Source of the DNA: Undibacterium hunanense
Lineage (GTDB): Bacteria > Pseudomonadota > Gammaproteobacteria > Burkholderiales > Burkholderiaceae_D
Assembly (NCBI RefSeq): GCF_014284335.1
Contig: NZ_JACOGF010000004.1
Location: forward strand, 1-64,000
Length of the DNA: 64,000 nucleotides
Reading direction: 5' to 3'
The position numbers and the translations under genes are program-made. Shown one piece after another: positions 4,652 through 57,878 of the stretch (its first letter is position 1; each line of letters begins with the position of its first letter). The notes under the pieces were generated by a model. That model was not told where the DNA came from. It saw only the letters and a list, made by a program, of their open reading frames with translations, and did no database searches.

Positions 4652-6244
4652 ATGTCCGGCAAGCATACGTATAAACTCGCCGTGCCCGGCAACCGATTTT
4701 CTTCTCTGTCGCTCAGGAATGCGATTGTGCTGGGTATCGCATTGGGAATCGTCATACCGGCGATGCTGCTGGGATCCGTGTTGGCCAGGGATAGTTATGA
4801 GCGTGAATATGAAGTGCGTGTGCGCGGCCCTTTGCGTCAGTATGCCAGCATGCTGGAGCAAACCATGCCTATACCCTTGTGGCAGGTTGATGCCGAAGCG
4901 GCACAGAGTTTTGTCAATTCCGTCATGCTCAATCCGGATGTGGTGCGTATCTCGGTAGAAGATGCTGCACTGGGGCGCTTTGTTCATGCCGAACAAGCCA
5001 ATGCGCAACAACAGGACCTGATTTCGGAAACCCGGGATGTCCGCAAGGATGGTGCCATCATAGGCCGAGTCACAATAGAGATGAGCAGCCACCTGATGGA
5101 GCAGGAATTTCTGAAGAAATTCCTGAAAGGTGGTGCGGCCATTCTTGTGCAGTTACTCATCTCTTTTTTCCTTCTGTGGCTCTTGTTCCAAAGACGTATG
5201 ATGCGCCCTTTGCAACAGTTGCAAAGAGATGTTGATCGTCTGGGAGAAGGGCAGTTTGCAGAACCCGTGCATGTCGCCAGGCCAGATGAACTGGGTAGCC
5301 TGGCACTCGGCGTTGATACCATGCGGGTACGACTGGGCGAGCTGATACAGATACAGGCCGATCATAACTTGACGCTGGAACAGAGGGTTGCAGATCGTAC
5401 GCAAGAGCTGCATGGTTCCAACAAAGAATTACGTACGGCATTGGAAAACCTGAATAATGCACAACTTGAAATCCAGCGTACGGACCGGCTTGCCGCACTC
5501 GGTTCACTGGTTGCCGGTGTCGCGCATGAACTGAATACGCCGATTGGTAATTCTGTGACGGTTGCCAGCACCATTCACGACCTGAGCAATGAGTTCCGCA
5601 AGCGCATGGCGCTGGGCATGACGCGTGCACAACTACAAACATATGTAGAAAAAAACTTGCAGGCCAGCGATATTTTATTGCGCAATCTGCATAGCGCGGC
5701 GGAGTTAATAGGTAGTTTCAAACGGGTTGCAGTAGACAGGACCAGTGCACAAAGAAGAGCATTTTTACTGGATGAAGTGATACGCGAAACTGTGCTGACC
5801 ATGGGTGCCAGCATCAAGCGCAGTATCCATGAGGTACGCATGGACTTGCCTGCCGATATCTGGATGGATTCTTATCCCGGTTTGCTCGGTCAGATCATCA
5901 GTAATCTGATTAATAACGCCATCTTGCACGGCTTTGATGGCAGGGAAAATGGCGTGATCAGTATTCATGCACATCGGGTGGATGTGGAGCCGGCTGCAGT
6001 CGAGTTAAGTGTCAGTGACAATGGCGTCGGTATTTCGGAAGCCAATATGACCAGGATATTTGATCCATTTTTTACCACCAAGCTTGGGCAGGGGGGCAGT
6101 GGCCTGGGCTTGAATATTGTGTACAACCTGATATGCGATGTACTGGGCGGTAGCATTCGCGTAGAAAGCAAGCTGGGTACCGGTGCCAGCTTTATCATGC
6201 ATCTGCCTTTGCATGCTCCCGGACATACCGATGCTGGCGAATAG
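4652..6244 (+). CDS. membrane sensor histidine kinase, HAMP type, orphan
   Basis: A 530-residue inner-membrane kinase. Membrane segment 1 is at about 23-45, followed by a periplasmic sensor region (46-158) without a recognised fold. Membrane segment 2 is at about 160-180, followed by a HAMP linker (MRPLQQLQRDVDRLGEGQF) and a coiled coil. The phospho-accepting His is H292 in VAHELNTPIGN. The ATPase domain shows an N-box (NLINNAILHGF), DNGVGIS, FDPFFTTK and GGSGLGLNIV. The kinase core is intact. No response regulator gene is adjacent, so its partner is elsewhere. It is convergent with a solute-binding protein gene 51 bases away, which could in principle supply a periplasmic sensing partner (inference). 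Confidence 0.92.
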   Translation: MSGKHTYKLAVPGNRFSSLSLRNAIVLGIALGIVIPAMLLGSVLARDSYEREYEVRVRGPLRQYASMLEQTMPIPLWQVDAEAAQSFVNSVMLNPDVVRISVEDAALGRFVHAEQANAQQQDLISETRDVRKDGAIIGRVTIEMSSHLMEQEFLKKFLKGGAAILVQLLISFFLLWLLFQRRMMRPLQQLQRDVDRLGEGQFAEPVHVARPDELGSLALGVDTMRVRLGELIQIQADHNLTLEQRVADRTQELHGSNKELRTALENLNNAQLEIQRTDRLAALGSLVAGVAHELNTPIGNSVTVASTIHDLSNEFRKRMALGMTRAQLQTYVEKNLQASDILLRNLHSAAELIGSFKRVAVDRTSAQRRAFLLDEVIRETVLTMGASIKRSIHEVRMDLPADIWMDSYPGLLGQIISNLINNAILHGFDGRENGVISIHAHRVDVEPAAVELSVSDNGVGISEANMTRIFDPFFTTKLGQGGSGLGLNIVYNLICDVLGGSIRVESKLGTGASFIMHLPLHAPGHTDAGE

Positions 6245-6295
6245 ACAGCGTACGCGCTGATGCGTTGATATTGCGATACCCAGATACTGCGATAC

Positions 6296-7114
6296 TCAGT
6301 TGCCAGATTTGGTGATACCTGACCATCCTTGCGGGCAGTTAACTTGCGCCGATAATTTCTGGTATTCACCTGATGCACGCAGTTTTTTCAAGCCAGTGTT
6401 AAATGCCTTGATCCTGTCTGCGCTGGTGACAAGGCTGCGTGGCAGCATCAGGTGGGTGGTGAAACTCTCTGTCATCAATTTGGGATGAGCGGATAGTTGC
6501 GCGGCTTCGGCTGGCGTAAAATTGCGCGCCAGCAGATCGCAGGTGACGTTTCTCTCCATTGGTGCAATGTCTACCCGCTTTAACATCAGCATGCGCAGTG
6601 CAGCCATGTCGTTCGGCAGTTTTTCCATCTTCAGTACACCCTTGTTGGCCATGGCCCAGATTTCGGGTGTATAGGTATAGTCCTGTATCATCGCAATGCG
6701 ATAGGGGCGCAAGTCATCCAGTTGCGTCCATTTGAAATCAAGGGCATTGCGATAAACGAAAACCCATTGTTCGGTGATGACATTGTCGCTGAGCCAAAAG
6801 CTGATATCGTGTTCCGGTTTGTGGCCCCAATAGGCAGTACCATCCCATTTGCCGTTACGGCTTTCAGCCAGTGCCCGTGACCACGGCAAAAACGTGAACT
6901 CCACTTTATAGCCTTCCAGTTCAAATGCCCGACGCACGATGCTCAGTGCTATCCCTTTATCTGCACGACTTTCAGTGGCGTAGGGCGGCAATTCACCCGT
7001 GGCTATTTTTAATGTCACGGGTACTGGTTTTTGTCCCCAGGCAAGGCTGACAGACAGGCAAAGGCAGCTTGCAAGCAAATAGGACCAGGCTTTTTTCATG
7101 ACGATGGCTTTCAT
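6296..7114 (-). CDS. periplasmic solute-binding protein, family 3 type
   Basis: 272 residues with a signal peptide (KKAWSYLLASCLCLSVSLAWG, cleavage near 28). It then shows the bacterial family 3 solute-binding pattern: an N-terminal IATGELPPYATES, then KGIALSIVRRAFELEGY, then FLPWSRALAESRNGKWDG and the hinge-like IAMIQDYTYTPE. Members bind amino acids or similar small ligands in the periplasm. No ABC permease or ATPase gene is nearby, so it is either an orphan receptor or a sensing accessory. The ATG at 7114 is used; a second in-frame ATG at 7099 would give a shorter, still valid signal peptide. It is transcribed alone. Confidence 0.85.
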   Translation of the reverse strand: MKAIVMKKAWSYLLASCLCLSVSLAWGQKPVPVTLKIATGELPPYATESRADKGIALSIVRRAFELEGYKVEFTFLPWSRALAESRNGKWDGTAYWGHKPEHDISFWLSDNVITEQWVFVYRNALDFKWTQLDDLRPYRIAMIQDYTYTPEIWAMANKGVLKMEKLPNDMAALRMLMLKRVDIAPMERNVTCDLLARNFTPAEAAQLSAHPKLMTESFTTHLMLPRSLVTSADRIKAFNTGLKKLRASGEYQKLSAQVNCPQGWSGITKSGN

Positions 7115-7249
7115 GTAAAAGGTGCTTTGAAAGCCATCATCTTCTTTATTGCTGCTGATAGCAAGTCTGATGTGAGCGCTGCTTCAACGCAGGAATGGAC
7201 AGTGCCAGCTTGAGCGATTTGAGTGCATGGTGAGGAATACCACGACAAA

Positions 7250-7288
7250 TGAAAAACGGGAACCATGGGCTCCCGTTATTTTTCTTGC
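7250..7288 (-). terminator. bidirectional terminator after the DUF2147 gene
   Basis: A near-perfect palindrome (AACGGGA...TCCCGTT, 7255-7277) is flanked by A-runs on the left and T-runs on the right. Read on the minus strand it ends the DUF2147 transcript 22 bases after its stop codon. Confidence 0.75.
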
Positions 7289-7309
7289 TATAGCGATGAA
7301 ATTAACTGA

Positions 7310-7774
7310 TTATTGTTCACGCAACCAGGTCTGGGTGCGGCCAAACATTGGTGCACCAATATAACCGCGCACATTCAGTTTCTTGTTGTTTTCAATCACA
7401 CTGAGTTTGCTGCTGTATAGCTTGCCGTTGCCTGGGTCGAGTATCTTGCCGCCGCTATATTCGTCGCCATCTTTTTTCAGACCGGACAAGATGGTCATGC
7501 CAACGATGGGCTGGTCCTTGTTGGCACCTTCGCATTTGTCGCACTTTGGATTCTTTTCAGGTGCATCTGCTTCCAGAAACAATTTCTCTATCTTGCCCTG
7601 CAATTCGCCACCGGTTTCGGTAATGCGTATCAATGCCTTGGGCTTGCCTGATTTGTCGTCTATGCTCTTCCACAGTCCGACCGGGCTTTCTTCAGCCTGT
7701 GCCAGCAGGGGCAGGCCTGCGAAAGCAATGATTGCGGATAATGCTGATATTGCGAATGGAACTGTTTTTTTCAT
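7310..7774 (-). CDS. DUF2147 domain exported protein
   Basis: 154 residues. The signal peptide (KKTVPFAISALSAIIAFAG, cleavage after LLAQA) is followed by the DUF2147 beta-barrel-like domain: PVGLWKSIDDKSGKPKALIR, the Cys pair NPKCDKCEG, IVGMTILSGLKKDGDEYSGG, ILDPGNGKLYSSKL and a final GYIGAPMFGRTQTW. Family members are periplasmic or outer-membrane associated proteins of unknown function. The start at 7774 is fixed by a GGAGACAGC ribosome site; a longer frame upstream has no such support. Upstream lies valS in the same direction, 116 bases away, so it probably has its own promoter. Confidence 0.88.
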   Translation of the reverse strand: MKKTVPFAISALSAIIAFAGLPLLAQAEESPVGLWKSIDDKSGKPKALIRITETGGELQGKIEKLFLEADAPEKNPKCDKCEGANKDQPIVGMTILSGLKKDGDEYSGGKILDPGNGKLYSSKLSVIENNKKLNVRGYIGAPMFGRTQTWLREQ

Positions 7775-7889
7775 GCTGTCTCCAAAAGAAAAAACCTGGA
7801 CCTCTAAATTATTAGAATTGATTGTACGTGGCAAAAATTCAACCACGTACAATATTTTTAGAGTACCTACTTTATTATTGCCAGGTCGG

Positions 7890-10715
7890 TCAGGCAACTG
7901 GCAATTTAGCTAATTGTTCAAGCAGTTTTTGCAGGGTGGCCTTGAAATTCGCCAGGCGTTCTTTTTCAACCGCGATTACCTGTGCAGGTGCCTTGGCGAC
8001 AAAGCCTTCGTTACCCAGTTTGGTCTCCAACTTGGCAATTTCACCTTCCAGGCGAGCGACTTCCTTGCTGATACGTGCACGTTCTGCTGCGACGTCGATT
8101 TCCACCTTCAGCATCAGCTTCGATTCGCCAACGACGGATACCGGTGCCGGTGATTCAGGCAATGCATCTACCACACTGACCTCTGACAGTTTCGCCAGTG
8201 CCTGCAGGTAAGGTGCAAAAGACTGCAGGCGGGCTTTGTCTTCTGCATTCGCAGCCTGCAACAGCAGTGGCACGCGCAGGGCAGGGGACAATTGCATTTC
8301 ACCGCGCAGGTTGCGACAGGCATCGGTCATGCCTTTGAGTGCCTGCATCCAGGTTTCTGCCGCAGTGTCGACGTTCTCTGCCACGAACAGCGGGTAAGCT
8401 TGAACCATGATGCTGTCGCCAGCCGGGTTCAGTGTCTTGCCTGCCAGCGGTGCCACGGTTTGCCACAAAGCTTCAGTGACAAAAGGAATGATAGGGTGGG
8501 CCAGGCGTAAGATCACTTCCAGCACGCGCAAGAGAGTGCGGCGGGTGGCGCGTTGCTGCGCTTCATTACCTTGCTGTACCTGGACCTTGGCAACTTCCAG
8601 ATACCAGTCGCAATATTCATCCCAGACAAATTTGTAGATGGCTGATGCGATATTGTCGAAACGGTAGTCGGCAAAACCTTTTTCTATCTCTGCCTCGGTA
8701 CGTTGCAGGGTAGAGATAATCCATTTGTCTGCCTGTGAGTATTCAAGGTCAGCATCGGTAACATCAGCACCAAAGCCGCAATCCTTGCCTTCGGTATTCA
8801 TCAGGACAAAGCGGGTCGCATTCCACAATTTATTGCAGAAATTGCGATAGCCTTCGCAACGGCCCAGATCAAAATTGATATTGCGACCCAGTGATGCATA
8901 GCTGGCCATGGTGAAGCGCAAAGCGTCTGTGCCATAGGCAGGGATACCGTCGGCGAATTCCTTGCGGGTAGCTTTTTCTATGCTGGCTGCCTGCTTGGGG
9001 TTCATCAAACCGGCTGTACGCTTGGCGACCAGTTCGTCAACGCTGATACCATCAATGAGGTCGATAGGGTCGAGGGTATTACCCTTGGACTTGGACATTT
9101 TCTGGCCGCTGGAATCGCGCACCAGACCATGTACATAGACTGTATTGAACGGTACCTTGCCGGTGAAGTGCGTGGTCATCATGACCATGCGCGCTACCCA
9201 GAAGAAAATAATGTCAAAGCCGGTGACGAGCACCGAGGATGGCAGGAATTGTTTGATGTCCGGTGTTTCTTCCGGCCAGCCCATGGTCGAGAAAGGCACC
9301 AGCGCAGACGAGAACCATGTATCGAGCACATCATCATCACGCTTCAATGCGCCAGTGTAGCCAGTGGCAGTCGCTTTGGCTTGTGCCCCGGCTTCATCAT
9401 GCGCAACAAAGATTTCACCATTGTCGCCATACCATGCCGGGATTTGATGGCCCCACCACAATTGGCGCGAGATGCACCAGTCCTGGATATTGGTCAGCCA
9501 CTGGTTGTAGGTTGTGGTCCAGTTTTCCGGGATGAATTTGATTTCACCGTCAGCGACTTTTTCCAGCGCGACTTCGGCGATGGATTTGCCAGGGAAATGC
9601 GTGCCTTCAGGTGCGGCTTTGCTCATGGCCATGAACCATTGATCAGTCAGCATGGGTTCGATAACCACATTGGTACGGTCGCCACGCGGCACCATCAGCT
9701 TGTGTGGTTTGACTGATTCCAGCAAACCTTGTGCATCGAGGTCAGCAACGATTTGCTTGCGGGCGACGAAACGGTCCATGCCCTGGTATTGTGCCGGGCC
9801 ATTTTCATTGATCTTGGCATCCAGTGTCAGGATGCTGATTTTTTCGAGGTTGTGACGCTGACCAACGGCGTAATCATTAAAGTCATGCGCAGGCGTGATC
9901 TTTACGCAGCCTGTGCCAAATTCCTTGTCGACATAACTGTCGGCTATCACCGGGATTTCGCGGTCTGTCAGTGGCAGCTTGAGCATCTTGCCAACCAGGT
10001 GGATGTAACGTTCATCCGTAGGGTCAACTGCCACGGCCACGTCACCCAGCAGGGTTTCAGGGCGGGTTGTCGCTACCGTCAGGTGGCCGGAACCATCAAC
10101 AAACGGATAACGGATATGCCACATCGAGCCATCTTCTTCTTCCGACACTACTTCCAGGTCAGACACAGCGGTGCCCAATACCGGATCCCAGTTGACCAGG
10201 CGTTTGCCGCGATAGATCAGGCCTTGTTCTACCAGTTTGACGAAGACATCAGTCACGATTTTGGAGCGTTCGGCATCCATCGTGAAGTATTCGCGATCCC
10301 AGTCGGCTGATGCACCCATGCGGCGCATCTGGCCGGTGATAGTGGAGCCGGATTTTTCTTTCCATTCCCAGACTTTTTTCAGGAATTTTTCACGGCCCAG
10401 ATCATGGCGCGAAATCTTTTGTGCATCAAGCTGGCGTTCCACCACGATTTGCGTAGCGATGCCAGCATGGTCAGTACCCGGCACCCAGGCTGTATTGTGG
10501 CCGCGCATGCGGTAGTAGCGGGTCAGCCCATCCATGATGGTCTGGTTGAAGGCATGGCCCATGTGCAGGGTACCTGTCACATTTGGCGGTGGCAGTTGTA
10601 TGGAAAATGAGGGCTTGCCTTCATCCAGGGTGGCGGCAAAATATCCACGTTTTTCCCACTCACCACGCCAGGATTGTTCGATTTCTGCGGGCTCAAAAGA
10701 CTTGGCTAATTCCAT
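7890..10715 (-). CDS. valS: valyl-tRNA synthetase
   Basis: Charges tRNA-Val with valine in the cytoplasm. 941 residues, the normal length for bacterial ValRS. It has the HIGH-type signature ([15 protein letters not shown]), the tryptophan-zipper-like [16 protein letters not shown], the editing domain ([25 protein letters not shown]), the KMSKS loop ([10 protein letters not shown]), an anticodon-binding domain, and a C-terminal coiled-coil arm rich in Glu and Lys ([20 protein letters not shown]). The ATG at 10715 gives the standard MELAKSFEP start; the frame is open upstream but that extension is rich in Arg and Cys, overlaps a repeat element and is not real. Confidence 0.97.
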
Positions 10716-13397: not shown

Positions 13398-13440
13398 CTG
13401 GCCTCGTCGTGGCTTTGCTTTTAAAGCCCGAAGAAAAAAT

Positions 13441-15537
<2,097 letters not shown>

Positions 15538-50366: not shown

Positions 50367-51323
50367 ATGAGAACAGGTAATCTTGCATTTGCAGGCGCGA
50401 CGACATTGTGCGTCGCTGCTTTTTTTGTTTTTACTGCTTTAAAAAACGAGCCCAATCAAGAGCCCATCAAACTGCGCAAGGCAGATCACAGCTTTGATTT
50501 TGTCCGCTCGATGGAAGGTACGACGGGTGATGGCAAAATCAGCCAGGATGCCGCCGGTGATTTACAGATCAATGTTGAACTGCGGCTGTTGTTTGATTAT
50601 TACCTGGCCGCCATCGGCGAAAAAAAACTGGATGAAATTCAGGCTGAAATTGAAAGAGTGCTGACCCAGAAACTGGGTAGCAAAGCTGCCCAGCAAGCCA
50701 AAGATTTGTTGGCGCGCTATATTCAATACAAACAGGCATTGCTGGCAGTGGAAAGTAATGCGCAAAATATTAGCCCTGGCAAAACCGGCATGAGTGTCGC
50801 CGCAAGACAGCGCTGGACCGCCATGCAGCAAGTGCGCCAGCGTTATTTCAGCGATCGTGAAAACCTGGCCATGTTTGGCTTTGATGATGCCTATGACCAG
50901 GACGCAATGGCAAGAATGGACATTGCAGAAAATAACAGCCTGTCGGCGGAAGATAAAAAGGCACAACTGAAAGCACTGGATGATGCCTTGCCCGCCGCCT
51001 TGAAAGAAGAAAAGAGTGCGCCTTATCAGGTCGTCCGGCTGGAAGAACAGGCACAAAGCCTGCGTGCCAATGGTGCCAGCGATGAAGAAGTCTTTCGTAT
51101 GCGCGCTGCCGCCACTTCACCCGAAGCTGCTGCCAGATTGGCACAGGTAGACAAGGAAGACGCAGCCTGGAAATCACGCATACAACAATACCTGGACCAA
51201 AAAAATCGCCTGAGTACGGAAATGGCTTTTCATAGCGAATCAGAAAAGCAGGGGGCCCTGCAACAGGTACGCAATCAGTTTTTTAGTGCAGATGAGCAGC
51301 GGCGTTTGTCTGCGTATGAGTGA
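50367..51323 (+). CDS. lifO: lipase-specific foldase (Lif)
   Basis: 318 residues. N-terminal membrane anchor (FAGATTLCVAAFFVFTAL), then a Lif domain of helices wrapping the lipase: the diagnostic ELRLLFDYYLAAIGEKKLDE (consensus RxxFDYxLxAxGE) at about residues 72-90, then repeated charged helices including QRYFSDRENLAMFGFDDAYD and VRNQFFSADEQRRLSAYE at the end. It activates and releases the lipase in the periplasm. Lies 119 bases after the lipase gene in the same direction. Confidence 0.95.
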   Translation: MRTGNLAFAGATTLCVAAFFVFTALKNEPNQEPIKLRKADHSFDFVRSMEGTTGDGKISQDAAGDLQINVELRLLFDYYLAAIGEKKLDEIQAEIERVLTQKLGSKAAQQAKDLLARYIQYKQALLAVESNAQNISPGKTGMSVAARQRWTAMQQVRQRYFSDRENLAMFGFDDAYDQDAMARMDIAENNSLSAEDKKAQLKALDDALPAALKEEKSAPYQVVRLEEQAQSLRANGASDEEVFRMRAAATSPEAAARLAQVDKEDAAWKSRIQQYLDQKNRLSTEMAFHSESEKQGALQQVRNQFFSADEQRRLSAYE

Positions 51324-51352
51324 TGTAGAGGGAAATTGGATATAAACTTCGA

Positions 51353-52207
51353 TTAGATACCATATAATTTACTGAGTATCCAATTTTCTACGAATTTTCC
51401 GTCTTTTGCTTCAAGGCGATAAGTATCTTTTTGCACCCAGTCAATTGCACCTTTAGTAAATGAACTAGTCGTAACAATTACTCCTTTTGTAGCTCTTAGG
51501 TGTTCTACAACGGCTGATAGTTCTCGCAAGTGACTCAGTTGTACTTTCTTGTGCCCGACATATTTTTTTGCTTGCCAAATTGCTTTAACGCTACCTAAAA
51601 TTGGGTCATTGCGTTCTGTGAGAACGTCTATTCCTCCATCTTTGCTTCCTTGCATAACGGTCACGTCCCATCCATTGGACGTTAGTAACTCACCGATTAA
51701 ATGCTCGAATTCGCGCCAGCTTAAATCTGAAAGTAACTTTCCTTCACGCAGTAACTTTGCTGCTAACATCAAATGATTTGGGGAGTTGGAAAGGAATGCA
51801 GGAGGTAGGGCAATAGTATTGTCAGGAATCCAAATTTCTTTTTCTGGTGTCGGCGGTGCCACGACATCAAAGTCGTTGTAATAGACTAAATCTGCAGCTA
51901 GCCACTCGTTAGTTTTTGTCCATGATGACACTTGCTCTTTGAATTTAACGAGCCACGCTTCTGTTACTTTTGCAGTGTTTATATGAAATCCCAATAGCCC
52001 CGGATCCGTCAAGTGGTGTGCCGTTTCAAAGTCAATCAATGGATTTGATAGTAAGAAATCTTCAATTTCCTCGTCGGTCGGCAATTCACTACTTGGTTTT
52101 ACATAGTCATCGTCATTGTTCTCACGGGACCTCCTATGTATTTCAATAGAGTTCAAAATCTCATGCATTACTATATCGCGTAGTGCTTGAGTGGTTAGGG
52201 TAGTCAT
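51353..52207 (-). CDS. Mrr-like restriction endonuclease (PD-(D/E)XK), TIR partner
   Basis: 284 residues from ATG 52207; a TTG at 52327, 16 bases after the TIR gene stop, would add 40 residues. C-terminal Mrr-type nuclease: E in LSWREFEHLIGELL, D194 in KDGGIDVLTERN and the QxK motif QAKKY (Q212, K214), with LRELSAVVEHLRATKGVIVT following. The catalytic set E-D-QxK looks complete. The N-terminal 150 residues (with LPPAFLSNSPNHLMLAAKLL) are of no family I recognise and may sense or bind. Strongly AT-rich with rare codons (TTA, ATA, AAT), unlike its neighbours, so probably acquired. Confidence 0.83.
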   Translation of the reverse strand: MTTLTTQALRDIVMHEILNSIEIHRRSRENNDDDYVKPSSELPTDEEIEDFLLSNPLIDFETAHHLTDPGLLGFHINTAKVTEAWLVKFKEQVSSWTKTNEWLAADLVYYNDFDVVAPPTPEKEIWIPDNTIALPPAFLSNSPNHLMLAAKLLREGKLLSDLSWREFEHLIGELLTSNGWDVTVMQGSKDGGIDVLTERNDPILGSVKAIWQAKKYVGHKKVQLSHLRELSAVVEHLRATKGVIVTTSSFTKGAIDWVQKDTYRLEAKDGKFVENWILSKLYGI

Positions 52208-52343
52208 AAAAGGATTGAAGTACTTATTTTTATATGGCAAAAGTAAATTGCAAGTAAACGCGTTTCGTTTCCATATTTTAAGTCGTAACCTTTTGCGTAA
52301 ATCAATAACATAGTTGATGTATTCCAAGCATTTGGAGCGGGGA

Positions 52344-53348
52344 TCAAATCGCTAGAGCCATTACGTTGCGCAAAATGAGTCTTGGTAATTCCATGAAAAG
52401 AAAATATTCCTCTTTGTCTTCAATTAGGAATTCCTCGACAAATGGATTGCGAGTGCTGCGCATTAGCAATTCTTCTAAATCTTTAATAGCACGCTCGGTT
52501 GTTGCTGGAGCTTTCGAACTTTCTAACTTTTTGAGTAACAAGATTCCTTCATCGTAAACCCATGGCATTTTCTCGCGATATAGGCTAAGAGCCATTTTTA
52601 TGCTAATTTTAGGATCTTTTGAAAATTGAAACATTTCTTCAAACATTCCAGGATGGAATCGCCGCCTTCTACGTTTTCCTTCGGAGTGAGTGGTTTTTTC
52701 AATACGAGAAGGCAAATCTTGAAACATGATTTTAATTTCTTCAAATAGTTTCGCAGACGAGTTCTCAATTTCAATAATGTTCGATGTTGATTCTTTTCCT
52801 GTAATATCTGATGGCCCATCAAGTTTTTTCAAAATTTCGACAACAGTTTGACGAAATTTACCTACTTGAAAATTAATAGTATCTTCGTCTGGCTCAGAAT
52901 TTGGAATTCTTGTTACCAATTGAAAAACTAATTTTGTTAGAGAGTCTTCGTCTCCCCCACAATTCTGAAATTGTGCAAATGGCCCTGATGATGCGTCTTT
53001 AAGCTCAACCCCCAGCGCAACGCCAAGTATTGGGGTATCTAACTTGCCTTTAGCCATACCTGCTTCGAAAAGTATCCATGGTCGATCGATGCTACGTTTA
53101 GTCAGAAGACACACAACATCAGAAGCGCTTTGTATGTTTTTAATTATTTCTGGGTACCATTCCACGCCATATTCAATGCCTTGATTGCCTCGGCGATCAG
53201 ATGTTCTAAATGACTTTAAAACGCCTGCGCTTACGCTTTTTAGTAGGTTGCTAAATGCCTCCGCCAATTCAGCGTCACGTGTGTCATGGCTGATAAATAC
53301 GAGTGGATTTGATAATTTTGCTATTTGCTCAATCTGATTTTCAGCCAT
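52344..53348 (-). CDS. TIR-domain protein, candidate anti-phage NADase/signalling enzyme
   Basis: 334 residues. N-terminal TIR-like domain (12-160): LVFISHDTRDAELAEAFSNL, a BB-loop-like region FRTSDRRGNQGIEYG, and the putative catalytic Glu E95 in WILFEAGMAKG. A charged linker (RRRRR stretch) leads to a helical C-terminal domain (240-334) I do not recognise. Bacterial TIR proteins hydrolyse NAD or make cyclic ADP-ribose messengers. Clear ribosome site AAGGACC. The Mrr-like nuclease follows in the same direction. AT-rich, foreign-looking, placed between housekeeping genes. Plausible roles: defence (Thoeris-like or new). Confidence 0.82.
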   Translation of the reverse strand: MAENQIEQIAKLSNPLVFISHDTRDAELAEAFSNLLKSVSAGVLKSFRTSDRRGNQGIEYGVEWYPEIIKNIQSASDVVCLLTKRSIDRPWILFEAGMAKGKLDTPILGVALGVELKDASSGPFAQFQNCGGDEDSLTKLVFQLVTRIPNSEPDEDTINFQVGKFRQTVVEILKKLDGPSDITGKESTSNIIEIENSSAKLFEEIKIMFQDLPSRIEKTTHSEGKRRRRRFHPGMFEEMFQFSKDPKISIKMALSLYREKMPWVYDEGILLLKKLESSKAPATTERAIKDLEELLMRSTRNPFVEEFLIEDKEEYFLFMELPRLILRNVMALAI

Positions 53349-53709
53349 AACGGGTCCTTGATAAATTGCGCGATTTAATTTTCCCTACTAAATAATAGCA
53401 AAAAATATTTTTATATTGTCAATTTAATGCATGGCAAAGCAAAATATTTGAATACTTATCTACGGTGGTGTTCAACAGTTTAAAACGAAACAGACGAAAA
53501 GAAGGCACTCTTTTCCCTAAGCAAAGTGGAGTTCTTGAACAAGAAGCAGTATTGCTTTCTTTAAAGGGGAAATACTTCTATTTTTGTCCAAAATGTTGTT
53601 GCCAATTGTTGTTTGACACAGTAATCGACAGGCCAAATGTCGTTAACCTACGCGTCTGTAGATTTGAGATTTGAGTCAAAGATTTAAGGAGGGAGATAAA
53701 ACTAAAAAC
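53349..53709. other. AT-rich right flank of the TIR/Mrr island
   Basis: 361 bases without a convincing gene, rich in A/T near 53385-53470. A 69-codon frame (53465-53674) with a CPKCCC motif lacks a ribosome site and family match. The TIR promoter should be here. The DUF1631 gene ends at 53710 with no visible terminator. Confidence 0.4.
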
Positions 53710-56073
53710 TCAAGCCAGGCTGAGTTCTTCAGCCTGTTCTTCTTCAGGCACGTTTTCCAGTGCTTCCATCAATGCGCGATCGACGACCTTGTCGAGTACC
53801 AGTATCTTCGCGCGTTTTTCGCGGAAGGTTTGTTCGAGTTCTTCGGCAGAGACCTGGAAAGTCTTGTCTTTGTCGCCCGTAGTGAAAATGTACAGACTGC
53901 GCATGGGGCTGACCCAGGCCAGTTTGACTTTGTTGGTACCACCGGATTTTTTGGTGAATTCCAGCCAGACGCCGCGTTCCAGTTCGGTGACGGTGTCCAC
54001 ATGTTCATCAGGCGGTGGCGGTGGTTCCTGCTCAACCTTGCTTTCGGCTTCAGCACGTTTTGCCAGGCGGCGTTCAGCTGCTTGCTGGGCGACTTCAACG
54101 GCAATTTCAAGCTGACGTTCTGGTGACAGATCCAGCGGCGCACGCACGATGGATGCATGGCATTCTGCCAGTTCGGCAAAGAACTGCACACGGTCGGCGT
54201 CTTCCCACTTGATCAGGCTCAGCCATTTGTTCAGGCGGGCCAGAATGGCGGGCAGACGATTCAATAATTCCTGGCGCTGTTGCAGAGTGATCTTGGGCTT
54301 GACGCTCCAGATCAGGTCATCCATGGTTTTGATGGCATCTTCAACGGCATAAGGTTTTTCTTCCTTGACGCTATAGGCCAGGGTCAATACCTTGGTCCAG
54401 CGGCTTTCAAGGAATGTTTCTACAAAGGCAACTACTTCACCGGTACCAACACGCAATGCCACTTCATGGGTGGCGGCCATATTGGCCTGTTTGACTTTTT
54501 CTTTTCTCAGCGCTGTGTTGATCGGTGCCTGCAAGGCCTGGGATGCTTCTTCCTCCTCTTTCTTGATGAAAGATTCGAGGTCGTTGACGACTTCATCAAA
54601 GAGCGCGATTTCCTGGTCAAACTCTTGCTGCACACGATGCACATTACGCTGCATGGTCTGGAACAGCGGATCTTGCTGACCCTTTTTCTGATCCCATGCC
54701 AGGCTGTAGCGCGACAGCAATTCAATCAGGCGACGTGCTGGATGGTCTTCCTGGAAAAAAAATTCCTTGTCCAGCAGTGCTGCTTTCAACACTGGTATCT
54801 GCAATACAGATATCAGTTCCTTGATCTGTTGCGGGATGGCTTGATTGCGGAAGACGCTATCGAACACCTGTGACAACAAATCAAGCGTATTTTTTTCTAC
54901 GCCGGTATTGGCCAGTTCGGGCATTTGCTCGCGCATTTGCGACAGGCGCAAGACGTCTTGCGCGCCAGCCATCAATTGCTGCAGCTTGACACTCTTTTGC
55001 AGGTCCGCAAGCTTTTGGAACATCTGGGCACGTGCTGCCACTTGCTGTTGTTCGCCACCAGCGCCAAAACCTGAATAAGGTGTCGCGCCCTGACCGTCGC
55101 CAGATGATCCATCGCCACCATGACCACCGGCCATACCGCCAGCGCCGCCATTACCACCACTCATACCACCCAGGCCACTACCGCCCATGCCGCCAGTACC
55201 ACCGCCGCCTCCGTGACCACCGCTGCCACCGCCACCGTGACCACCGCCATGGGCGAACTGGCCACCATCATTGGCCGCGTTTTGGCCGCCACCAGACAGG
55301 AAGCTACGCAGTTTTTGGGATACGTCGCCGGGTGTTGCTGCTACCGCCGTTGCTTCTTTGCGACGTTCTACACTGCTGCGGCTACGGCGTATGCGGAAAG
55401 ACTCATGCAGATCCGGCAGAATGCCTTTGGCAATCAGTGCTTCATTCAGTGTGTTTAATATCGGTTCAAGGTCAAACAGAATTTCGGCACGAAGCAAAGG
55501 TAATACCAGTTCGTGGGTATTAAGCTCCGGGTCAAATTCACACCAGGCTGCATAGATGGTGTGCAAGAACACTTCGGGGCGGAACGGGTTTTGTGCAATG
55601 CTCAGTGCTTCATGGTCCATCAAGTGGGCAAAGCGCATGTTCAACGCGGCATATTGCTCGGCACTGTCGAGTTCCAGTGTGCGGCTGGAACGGCTCAGGG
55701 CCAGTTTCTTGTCCATTTCTTCATACGTCACCAGGCTCAGGGCGATATCAACAGGTGAGGCTATGGCACGCACACCCTGCAACAGGGCGTCAATTTCTTT
55801 ACGGAAGCCTTTTTCAAACCCGGCAGAAGTCAGGTAATAAAAGGCGTAGGAATTTTTCTTTAGTAATTGGCCGGCGTTGAAGCTAAGGTTGGCTTCACGG
55901 GCATCCATGCTGTGCTCGGACAAGGCAAGGAAGGCATTCGACAAGCGGGCCGAAAAGGCATCCAGCTGCGACACCACCAAATGCGTTGCCAGTGGAATTA
56001 AACCGCGCAATACCTCATCCCGGGACTGCAGGGCAGGTCCGGTAGATGCAGGTTTATTGACGGGATTCGACAT
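53710..56073 (-). CDS. DUF1631 family protein with Gly/His-rich insert
   Basis: 787 residues. N-terminal DUF1631 signature (LIPLATHLVVSQLDAFSARL, ANLSFNAGQLLKKNSYAFYY). The middle (about residues 265-345) is a low-complexity Gly/His/Ser/Met stretch. A helical domain (PARRLIELLSRYSLAW, QEFDQEIALFDEVVNDLES) follows, and a C-terminal PilZ-like beta module (VWLEFTKKSGGTNKVKLAWV, YIFTTGDKDKTFQV). The family is widespread in beta- and gammaproteobacteria and probably cytoplasmic; function unknown, perhaps linked to c-di-GMP because of the PilZ-like end (inference). The Gly-rich insert is likely disordered. Confidence 0.87.
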   Translation of the reverse strand: MSNPVNKPASTGPALQSRDEVLRGLIPLATHLVVSQLDAFSARLSNAFLALSEHSMDAREANLSFNAGQLLKKNSYAFYYLTSAGFEKGFRKEIDALLQGVRAIASPVDIALSLVTYEEMDKKLALSRSSRTLELDSAEQYAALNMRFAHLMDHEALSIAQNPFRPEVFLHTIYAAWCEFDPELNTHELVLPLLRAEILFDLEPILNTLNEALIAKGILPDLHESFRIRRSRSSVERRKEATAVAATPGDVSQKLRSFLSGGGQNAANDGGQFAHGGGHGGGGSGGHGGGGGTGGMGGSGLGGMSGGNGGAGGMAGGHGGDGSSGDGQGATPYSGFGAGGEQQQVAARAQMFQKLADLQKSVKLQQLMAGAQDVLRLSQMREQMPELANTGVEKNTLDLLSQVFDSVFRNQAIPQQIKELISVLQIPVLKAALLDKEFFFQEDHPARRLIELLSRYSLAWDQKKGQQDPLFQTMQRNVHRVQQEFDQEIALFDEVVNDLESFIKKEEEEASQALQAPINTALRKEKVKQANMAATHEVALRVGTGEVVAFVETFLESRWTKVLTLAYSVKEEKPYAVEDAIKTMDDLIWSVKPKITLQQRQELLNRLPAILARLNKWLSLIKWEDADRVQFFAELAECHASIVRAPLDLSPERQLEIAVEVAQQAAERRLAKRAEAESKVEQEPPPPPDEHVDTVTELERGVWLEFTKKSGGTNKVKLAWVSPMRSLYIFTTGDKDKTFQVSAEELEQTFREKRAKILVLDKVVDRALMEALENVPEEEQAEELSLA

Positions 56074-57748: not shown

Positions 57749-57878
57749 CCGTAGGGTGCGCCATGCGCACCACAATGAGCACCACAATGAGCACCACAAT
57801 GAGCACCACAATGAGCACCACAATGAGCACCACAAACCGGCAAGGCAAATCGAACGGTGCGCATGGTGCACCCTACGG
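57749..57878. repeat. inverted GTAGGGTGCGC repeat pair
   Basis: CCGTAGGGTGCGCCATGCGCACC at 57749-57771 (left arm; key parts CCGTAGGGTGCGC and GCGCACC) and its near reverse complement at 57856-57878, with 22 of 23 bases matching. This is a repeat class common in proteobacterial genomes. Each arm has a GTGCGC/GCGCAC palindrome. A 12-base tandem array sits between the arms. A third copy in the left-arm orientation is at 57951-57971. Confidence 0.8.
57769..57835. repeat. 12-base tandem repeat (ACCACAATGAGC)n
   Basis: Five perfect units (57769, 57781, 57793, 57805, 57817) and a partial sixth (to 57835). The array begins within the last bases of the left inverted-repeat arm, so it seems to have grown at its inner edge. 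Confidence 0.9.

Follow-up and report, generated by a model that had tools for sequence, protein, structure and literature searches.

A candidate TIR defence protein with a conserved C-terminal helical module, and the Mrr-type nuclease encoded beside it, in Undibacterium hunanense

We analysed the first 64,000 nucleotides of contig NZ_JACOGF010000004.1 of Undibacterium hunanense (assembly GCF_014284335.1), referred to here as the window, in which neighbouring genes for a TIR-domain protein and an Mrr-type nuclease had been proposed to form a two-gene anti-phage system. The TIR gene (52344..53348, reverse strand) begins with ATG and encodes a protein of 334 amino acids (aa), with an N-terminal TIR domain and a C-terminal helical module. 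The Mrr gene (51353..52327, reverse strand) has a longest open reading frame (ORF) of 324 aa from a TTG codon, but the ATG at 52207, which gives a protein of 284 aa, appears to be the likelier start. Base composition was assessed against a mechanically chosen, non-overlapping set of ORFs of at least 200 aa. The GC fraction of the TIR and Mrr genes was 0.388 and 0.395, and that at third codon positions (GC3) was 0.31 and 0.36, respectively, compared to 0.555 (standard deviation 0.046) for the 37 other ORFs in the window. The two genes ranked lowest of the 39 in GC3 and in codon-adaptation score alike, which bears out the foreign composition claimed for them in the original prediction.

The TIR domain spans residues about 14-150 (52899..53309, reverse strand). 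Pfam TIR_2 (PF13676) matched residues 17-128 (E 5.1e-7; 30.7 bits, cut-off 28), and structure matches of the protein covered mainly residues 12-157, i.e. the TIR part; the predicted fold of the window protein is that expected of a bacterial TIR enzyme that cleaves nicotinamide adenine dinucleotide (an NADase). Glu95 (codon 53064-53066, reverse strand), which lies within the motif WILFEAG and in a helix predicted at residues 90-102, was invariant in all 29 rows of an alignment of the window protein with 28 close relatives and in all 39 rows when 38 relatives were included; we infer that it is the counterpart of the catalytic glutamate of other TIR domains. Comparison with the copy at the close locus L122 gave proportions of nonsynonymous and synonymous differences of 0.127 and 0.901, respectively, indicating amino-acid constraint on the TIR protein across species. 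Neither the TIR family profile nor the Mrr protein nor L166, a protein described below, had a match at E 1 when solved structures were searched by sequence.

The catalytic domain of the nuclease (51395..51730, reverse strand) matched Pfam Mrr_cat (PF04471; E 3.7e-23), a family search gave the same coordinates, and the D...QxK residues of an Mrr-type nuclease were present. These residues were invariant in the three Mrr proteins that we aligned (those of the window, L136 and the viral contig L192), and both the domain calls and the catalytic residues of the earlier reading were upheld for the two genes. Mrr_cat is shared with Mrr-type type IV restriction enzymes, and the PADLOC models mREase_IV and PDC-S02 matched the window protein at 2.8e-16 and 1.3e-11. 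Unlike the Mrr protein of L136, however, that of the window has no Mrr_N domain by Pfam. Its N-terminal part (51731..52207, reverse strand) had no Pfam match and, as had been suspected, no real relative was found for it: apart from itself, only two weak matches were obtained in 392 family genomes (E 2e-4 and 6e-4), and these were LysR regulators and were dismissed as chance.

Both genes occupy a small spot (51324..53705) between a lipase chaperone gene (50367-51323, forward strand) and a DUF1631 gene (53710-56073, reverse strand), and they are its only ORFs of at least 80 aa, if one frame that overhangs from the DUF1631 gene is set aside. Of eight loci compared within the genus, seven had both flanks. 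The gap measured 275 bases in L073 and about 0.1 kb in L078, and these two of the seven were taken as empty; L071, L074 and L075 held two or three ORFs, 140-246 aa in length, and L072 and L076 a single ORF of 235-238 aa that was HicB-like by eye. This varying content indicates a spot at which accessory genes come and go. As for a mobile-element signature, the window contained no tRNA and only short two-copy repeats, attC sites not being modelled. The cargo of the spot in these relatives was not identified as defence, and one could imagine that both genes are accessory and have no present role against phage, the TIR protein being, say, regulatory or stress-related and the nuclease a relic. We regard this as quite improbable, given the amino-acid constraint on the TIR protein across species, the intact catalytic residues of both proteins and the defence genes that adjoin some relatives. 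An anti-phage role of the two genes is plausible.

Relatives of the TIR protein were sparse and scattered. At E 0.001, matches were found in 6 of 147 relatives (own genome included), the best other being 82% identical and from the same genus; at the level of the class, 9 of 369 genomes had one. The gene for the 82% identical protein sits between fdhD and thrC, with an ORF of 227 aa on the thrC side (names assigned by eye; FdhD also by Pfam). A scan of 84,980 species genomes with two peptide patterns drawn from a four-row alignment yielded 67 related loci, of which 31 (L122-L151 and L169) were judged close, with 44-81% identity in the best segment; by their record titles, the close relatives from this one pattern scan come from at least ten phyla. 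In a tree of 32 TIR proteins (window, 28 close and three distant), the window protein grouped with those of Undibacterium, Nitrosomonas and Oxalicibacterium (support 100/100), followed outward by a metagenome-assembled genome (MAG) of Omnitrophota (98/89) and then by a Bacteroidota clade. The 11 phylum labels required 15 changes on this tree, the minimum being 10 and the mean for shuffled labels 18.6, with none of 200 shuffles as low. Phylum labels are therefore clustered on the TIR tree but not congruent with it. This pattern fits horizontal spread, while MAG contamination and paralogy are alternatives that would also be compatible with the sequences.

We looked for conserved co-occurrence of the two genes in unrelated genomes. 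No orthologous TIR/Mrr pair was found elsewhere in the family, class and species-genome searches. The window Mrr protein, used as a tblastn query over the 67 TIR loci, gave a single match at E 0.1 or better, in L136, and a profile of 59 Mrr catalytic domains, run over all frames of at least 60 codons in 860,236 bases, likewise found only L136 besides the window. In L136 the Mrr_cat gene is 198 bp downstream of the TIR gene on the same strand. A second juxtaposition was found on the viral contig L192, where positions 4958-8300 encode, on one strand, a DUF2971 protein, a TIR protein, an ORF of 115 aa and an Mrr_cat protein; here the Mrr_cat gene lies at +411 bp with the small ORF between, and the domain is at the N-terminus of the protein (4.1e-6). 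An Mrr_cat gene thus stood near the TIR gene in two of the 32 other close loci. No Mrr_cat domain was present in the stretch examined at the remaining 30, 25 of which had at least 1.5 kb of downstream sequence. Over all 32, at least 1.5 kb was available downstream in 26 and upstream in 27, while L136 had only 1.24 kb downstream. Putative nucleases noted by eye beside L127 and L144 had no Pfam or PADLOC match and were not counted.

These results bear on the proposal of an obligate system, in which a product of the TIR protein, or contact with it, activates the nuclease to cut DNA. The adjacency of the genes, their shared strand and their common foreign composition would suit such a system, as would the like juxtaposition in L136 and L192. 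However, the genome that encodes the 82% identical TIR protein had no Mrr match at E 0.001, Mrr_cat is missing from the examined stretch of most close loci, and the three Mrr proteins each have another architecture. In addition, the TIR protein of L136 grouped with that of L131 and apart from that of the window, with support (91/68) that is not strong. We consider an obligate pair very improbable, and the original claim of a defined two-gene system is not sustained. It had been stated that the idea would fall if the pair occurred in this species only; in the genomes searched this was the case for the orthologous pair, whereas the looser arrangement, a gene of this TIR family next to some Mrr_cat gene, also occurred elsewhere. 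No TIR/Mrr system was recognised among the titles and abstracts of the literature matches listed.

A looser, modular partnership may also be considered, in which the TIR protein makes a nucleotide signal and couples to whichever local effector has been acquired, be it Mrr or ThsB with a SLATT, Macro or 8xMP protein. Four of the 31 close loci carried ThsB together with a membrane or Macro protein, Mrr_cat was found at the two loci described above, and many loci have same-strand downstream genes at short spacing. On the other hand, several close relatives adjoin housekeeping-like genes or a transposase (by eye), the loci with ThsB may be separate Thoeris-like units, and no signal-binding part was recognised by Pfam in the window Mrr protein. 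We regard such a partnership as unlikely, though it is the least improbable of the rival explanations. The close loci had 144 neighbour ORFs at a distance of up to 3 kb; among these, any one PADLOC family occurred at most three times and any one Pfam family at most four times (ThsB_TIR). A common partner gene was rejected, as none was present in more than four of the 67 loci. The four ThsB-type TIR genes were accompanied by ThsA_Macro in L131, SLATT in L133, DUF4231/SLATT in L145 and 8xMP in L150; these loci may represent Thoeris-like units of three genes, two of which encode TIR proteins. Other neighbours included Hachiman genes (L130) and a HEPN gene (L169).

The C-terminal part of the TIR protein (residues 197-334; 52347..52760, reverse strand) is helical, with helices from 234 to 333, and the structure model had block means of the predicted local distance difference test of 84-96 from residue 231 onward. 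It had been described as unassigned, and no Pfam family scored over its cut-off; nevertheless, it is a conserved module. In the window, and likewise in 54 of the 67 loci, one ORF was matched by the profile of the N-terminal part as well as by that of the C-terminal part; the 54 include L151, a split gene. In L151 and L125 the TIR gene is divided into two ORFs, and in L125 and L187 the two parts lie in separate frames.

The module also occurs on proteins of another kind. The C-terminal profile alone, with no TIR part, matched L166 (2.8e-47) and L171 (9.2e-44), and of 349 genomes searched for the module three gave a match, two with a non-TIR N-terminus (L197 and L198) and one with the TIR form (L196). 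Viral sequences scanned with the module yielded three loci: L193, which is the L192 contig, L194, a distant TIR form, and L195, where no ORF matched the profile. At E 10, the TIR-part profile did not match the N-termini of L166, L171, L197 and L198. The last three of these N-termini showed 57-68% identity to the first, and each of the four aligned at 33-36% to a Tritonibacter protein that matched Pfam Nuc_deoxyrib_tr at 28.5 bits, just below the cut-off of 28.8 (E 1.8e-6). L166 and L171 themselves had no Pfam match. Together with the Tritonibacter protein, L166 (3.6e-8) and L171 (1.8e-8) matched a PADLOC effector model whose description is TIR. The N-terminal domain of the four proteins may thus be deoxyribosyltransferase-like, by a chain of alignments through the Tritonibacter protein and not by a family match. 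A swap between TIR and deoxyribosyltransferase-like domains would be consistent with the class of nucleotide N-glycosidase folds in which PMC9503650 reports TIR, DrHyd and SLOG to be grouped. Tentatively, and with slightly less than even confidence, we propose that the module is a trigger common to a wide range of defence enzymes that each consist of one protein and occur in many phyla. One sensing or clustering module would then serve two chemistries on two nucleotide N-glycosidase folds, and the TIR form would at times enlist an effector encoded nearby, be it a nuclease, as with Mrr in the window, or a membrane protein. No description of this module was recognised among the titles and abstracts of the literature matches listed.

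We compared the window proteins with known systems. The P2-like phage AC1 has a 2TM-1TM-TIR system (PADLOC TIR-TM, PDLC03016; PMC9122126) whose TIR protein likewise has an N-terminal TIR domain and a length of about 300-340 aa, and the PADLOC TIR-TM profile aligned to residues 57-293 of the window protein. The E value was 2.4e-11 for the window protein compared to 2.7e-118 for that of AC1 and 3.8e-122 to 7.8e-115 for L155, L153 and L003. At E 10, the profile of the C-terminal module did not match the AC1 protein, and the 2TM and 1TM partner genes are absent from the window spot, as judged from its ORFs. The AC1 protein may be a distant relative of the window TIR protein; PMC9122126 reports that the AC1 TIR protein, cloned together with its two membrane partners, protects Escherichia coli. 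SpbK, a TIR NADase of Bacillus subtilis, is reported to be activated by clustering on a phage portal protein (PMC12847820), but its matched TIR domain lies at residues 111-266, whereas that of the window protein is N-terminal, and the two are 16% identical over the aligned part. Thoeris shares the TIR domain, but matches of the window protein to ThsB profiles were weak (best 2.4e-4) and no ThsA lies beside it, the neighbours by Pfam being a lipase-like hydrolase, the lipase chaperone, Mrr and the DUF1631 protein. For the TIR-APAZ proteins of SPARTA, Pfam found no APAZ or Argonaute match in the TIR protein, the Mrr protein or three flanking proteins.

The reading that we favour, and consider somewhat probable, is that of a self-contained, horizontally spread TIR defence gene with a control module, next to an independent Mrr nuclease. 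The analysis itself shows the sequences with their conserved residues, the predicted fold, a distribution that is scattered, the lack of a conserved pairing and the modularity of the C-terminus; NAD cleavage, the trigger, an effect on phage and the mutual independence of the TIR and Mrr proteins are what we infer. By analogy with SpbK, our model for a clustering-activated TIR NADase, the TIR domain would probably cleave NAD+ once the protein clusters after infection, the C-terminal helical module would probably control it by sensing or oligomerisation, and infected cells would stop growing as the outcome. The Mrr protein would be an independent restriction-type nuclease gained in the same small accessory spot, and the two might add up in defence without forming an obligate system.

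Several observations weigh against such independence. The two genes are close, on the same strand and with no terminator-like site found between them, so that co-transcription is plausible. In both L136 and L192 the Mrr_cat gene is likewise downstream and on the same strand, and against these two only about 0.006 Mrr_cat genes would be expected by chance in 42,260 downstream bases, a rough figure that assumes about 3.6 Mb per genome and the frequency of Mrr_cat in 150 sampled genomes of the phylum of the window (present in 60, with one to three genes each). The excess could have a simpler cause, which is the general clustering of defence genes. The ThsB-flanked loci, too, may mean that the TIR protein does not always act alone.

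If the self-contained reading is true, the members of a widespread TIR family would act as immune enzymes that need one gene only, and their helical C-terminal part would be a control module that can be swapped. This would then offer a handle on the activation of solitary bacterial TIR enzymes, because the presence of the module on a different enzyme allows domain swaps, and it would caution against naming two-gene systems by adjacency alone.

Elsewhere in the window, a thiamine pyrophosphate riboswitch at 13434-13543 (forward strand) was the sole Rfam match above its gathering score. At 57763-57835, a unit of 12 bases is repeated in tandem (6.1 copies, with 98% matches), between polyprenyl synthase-like and dxs-like genes (by eye).
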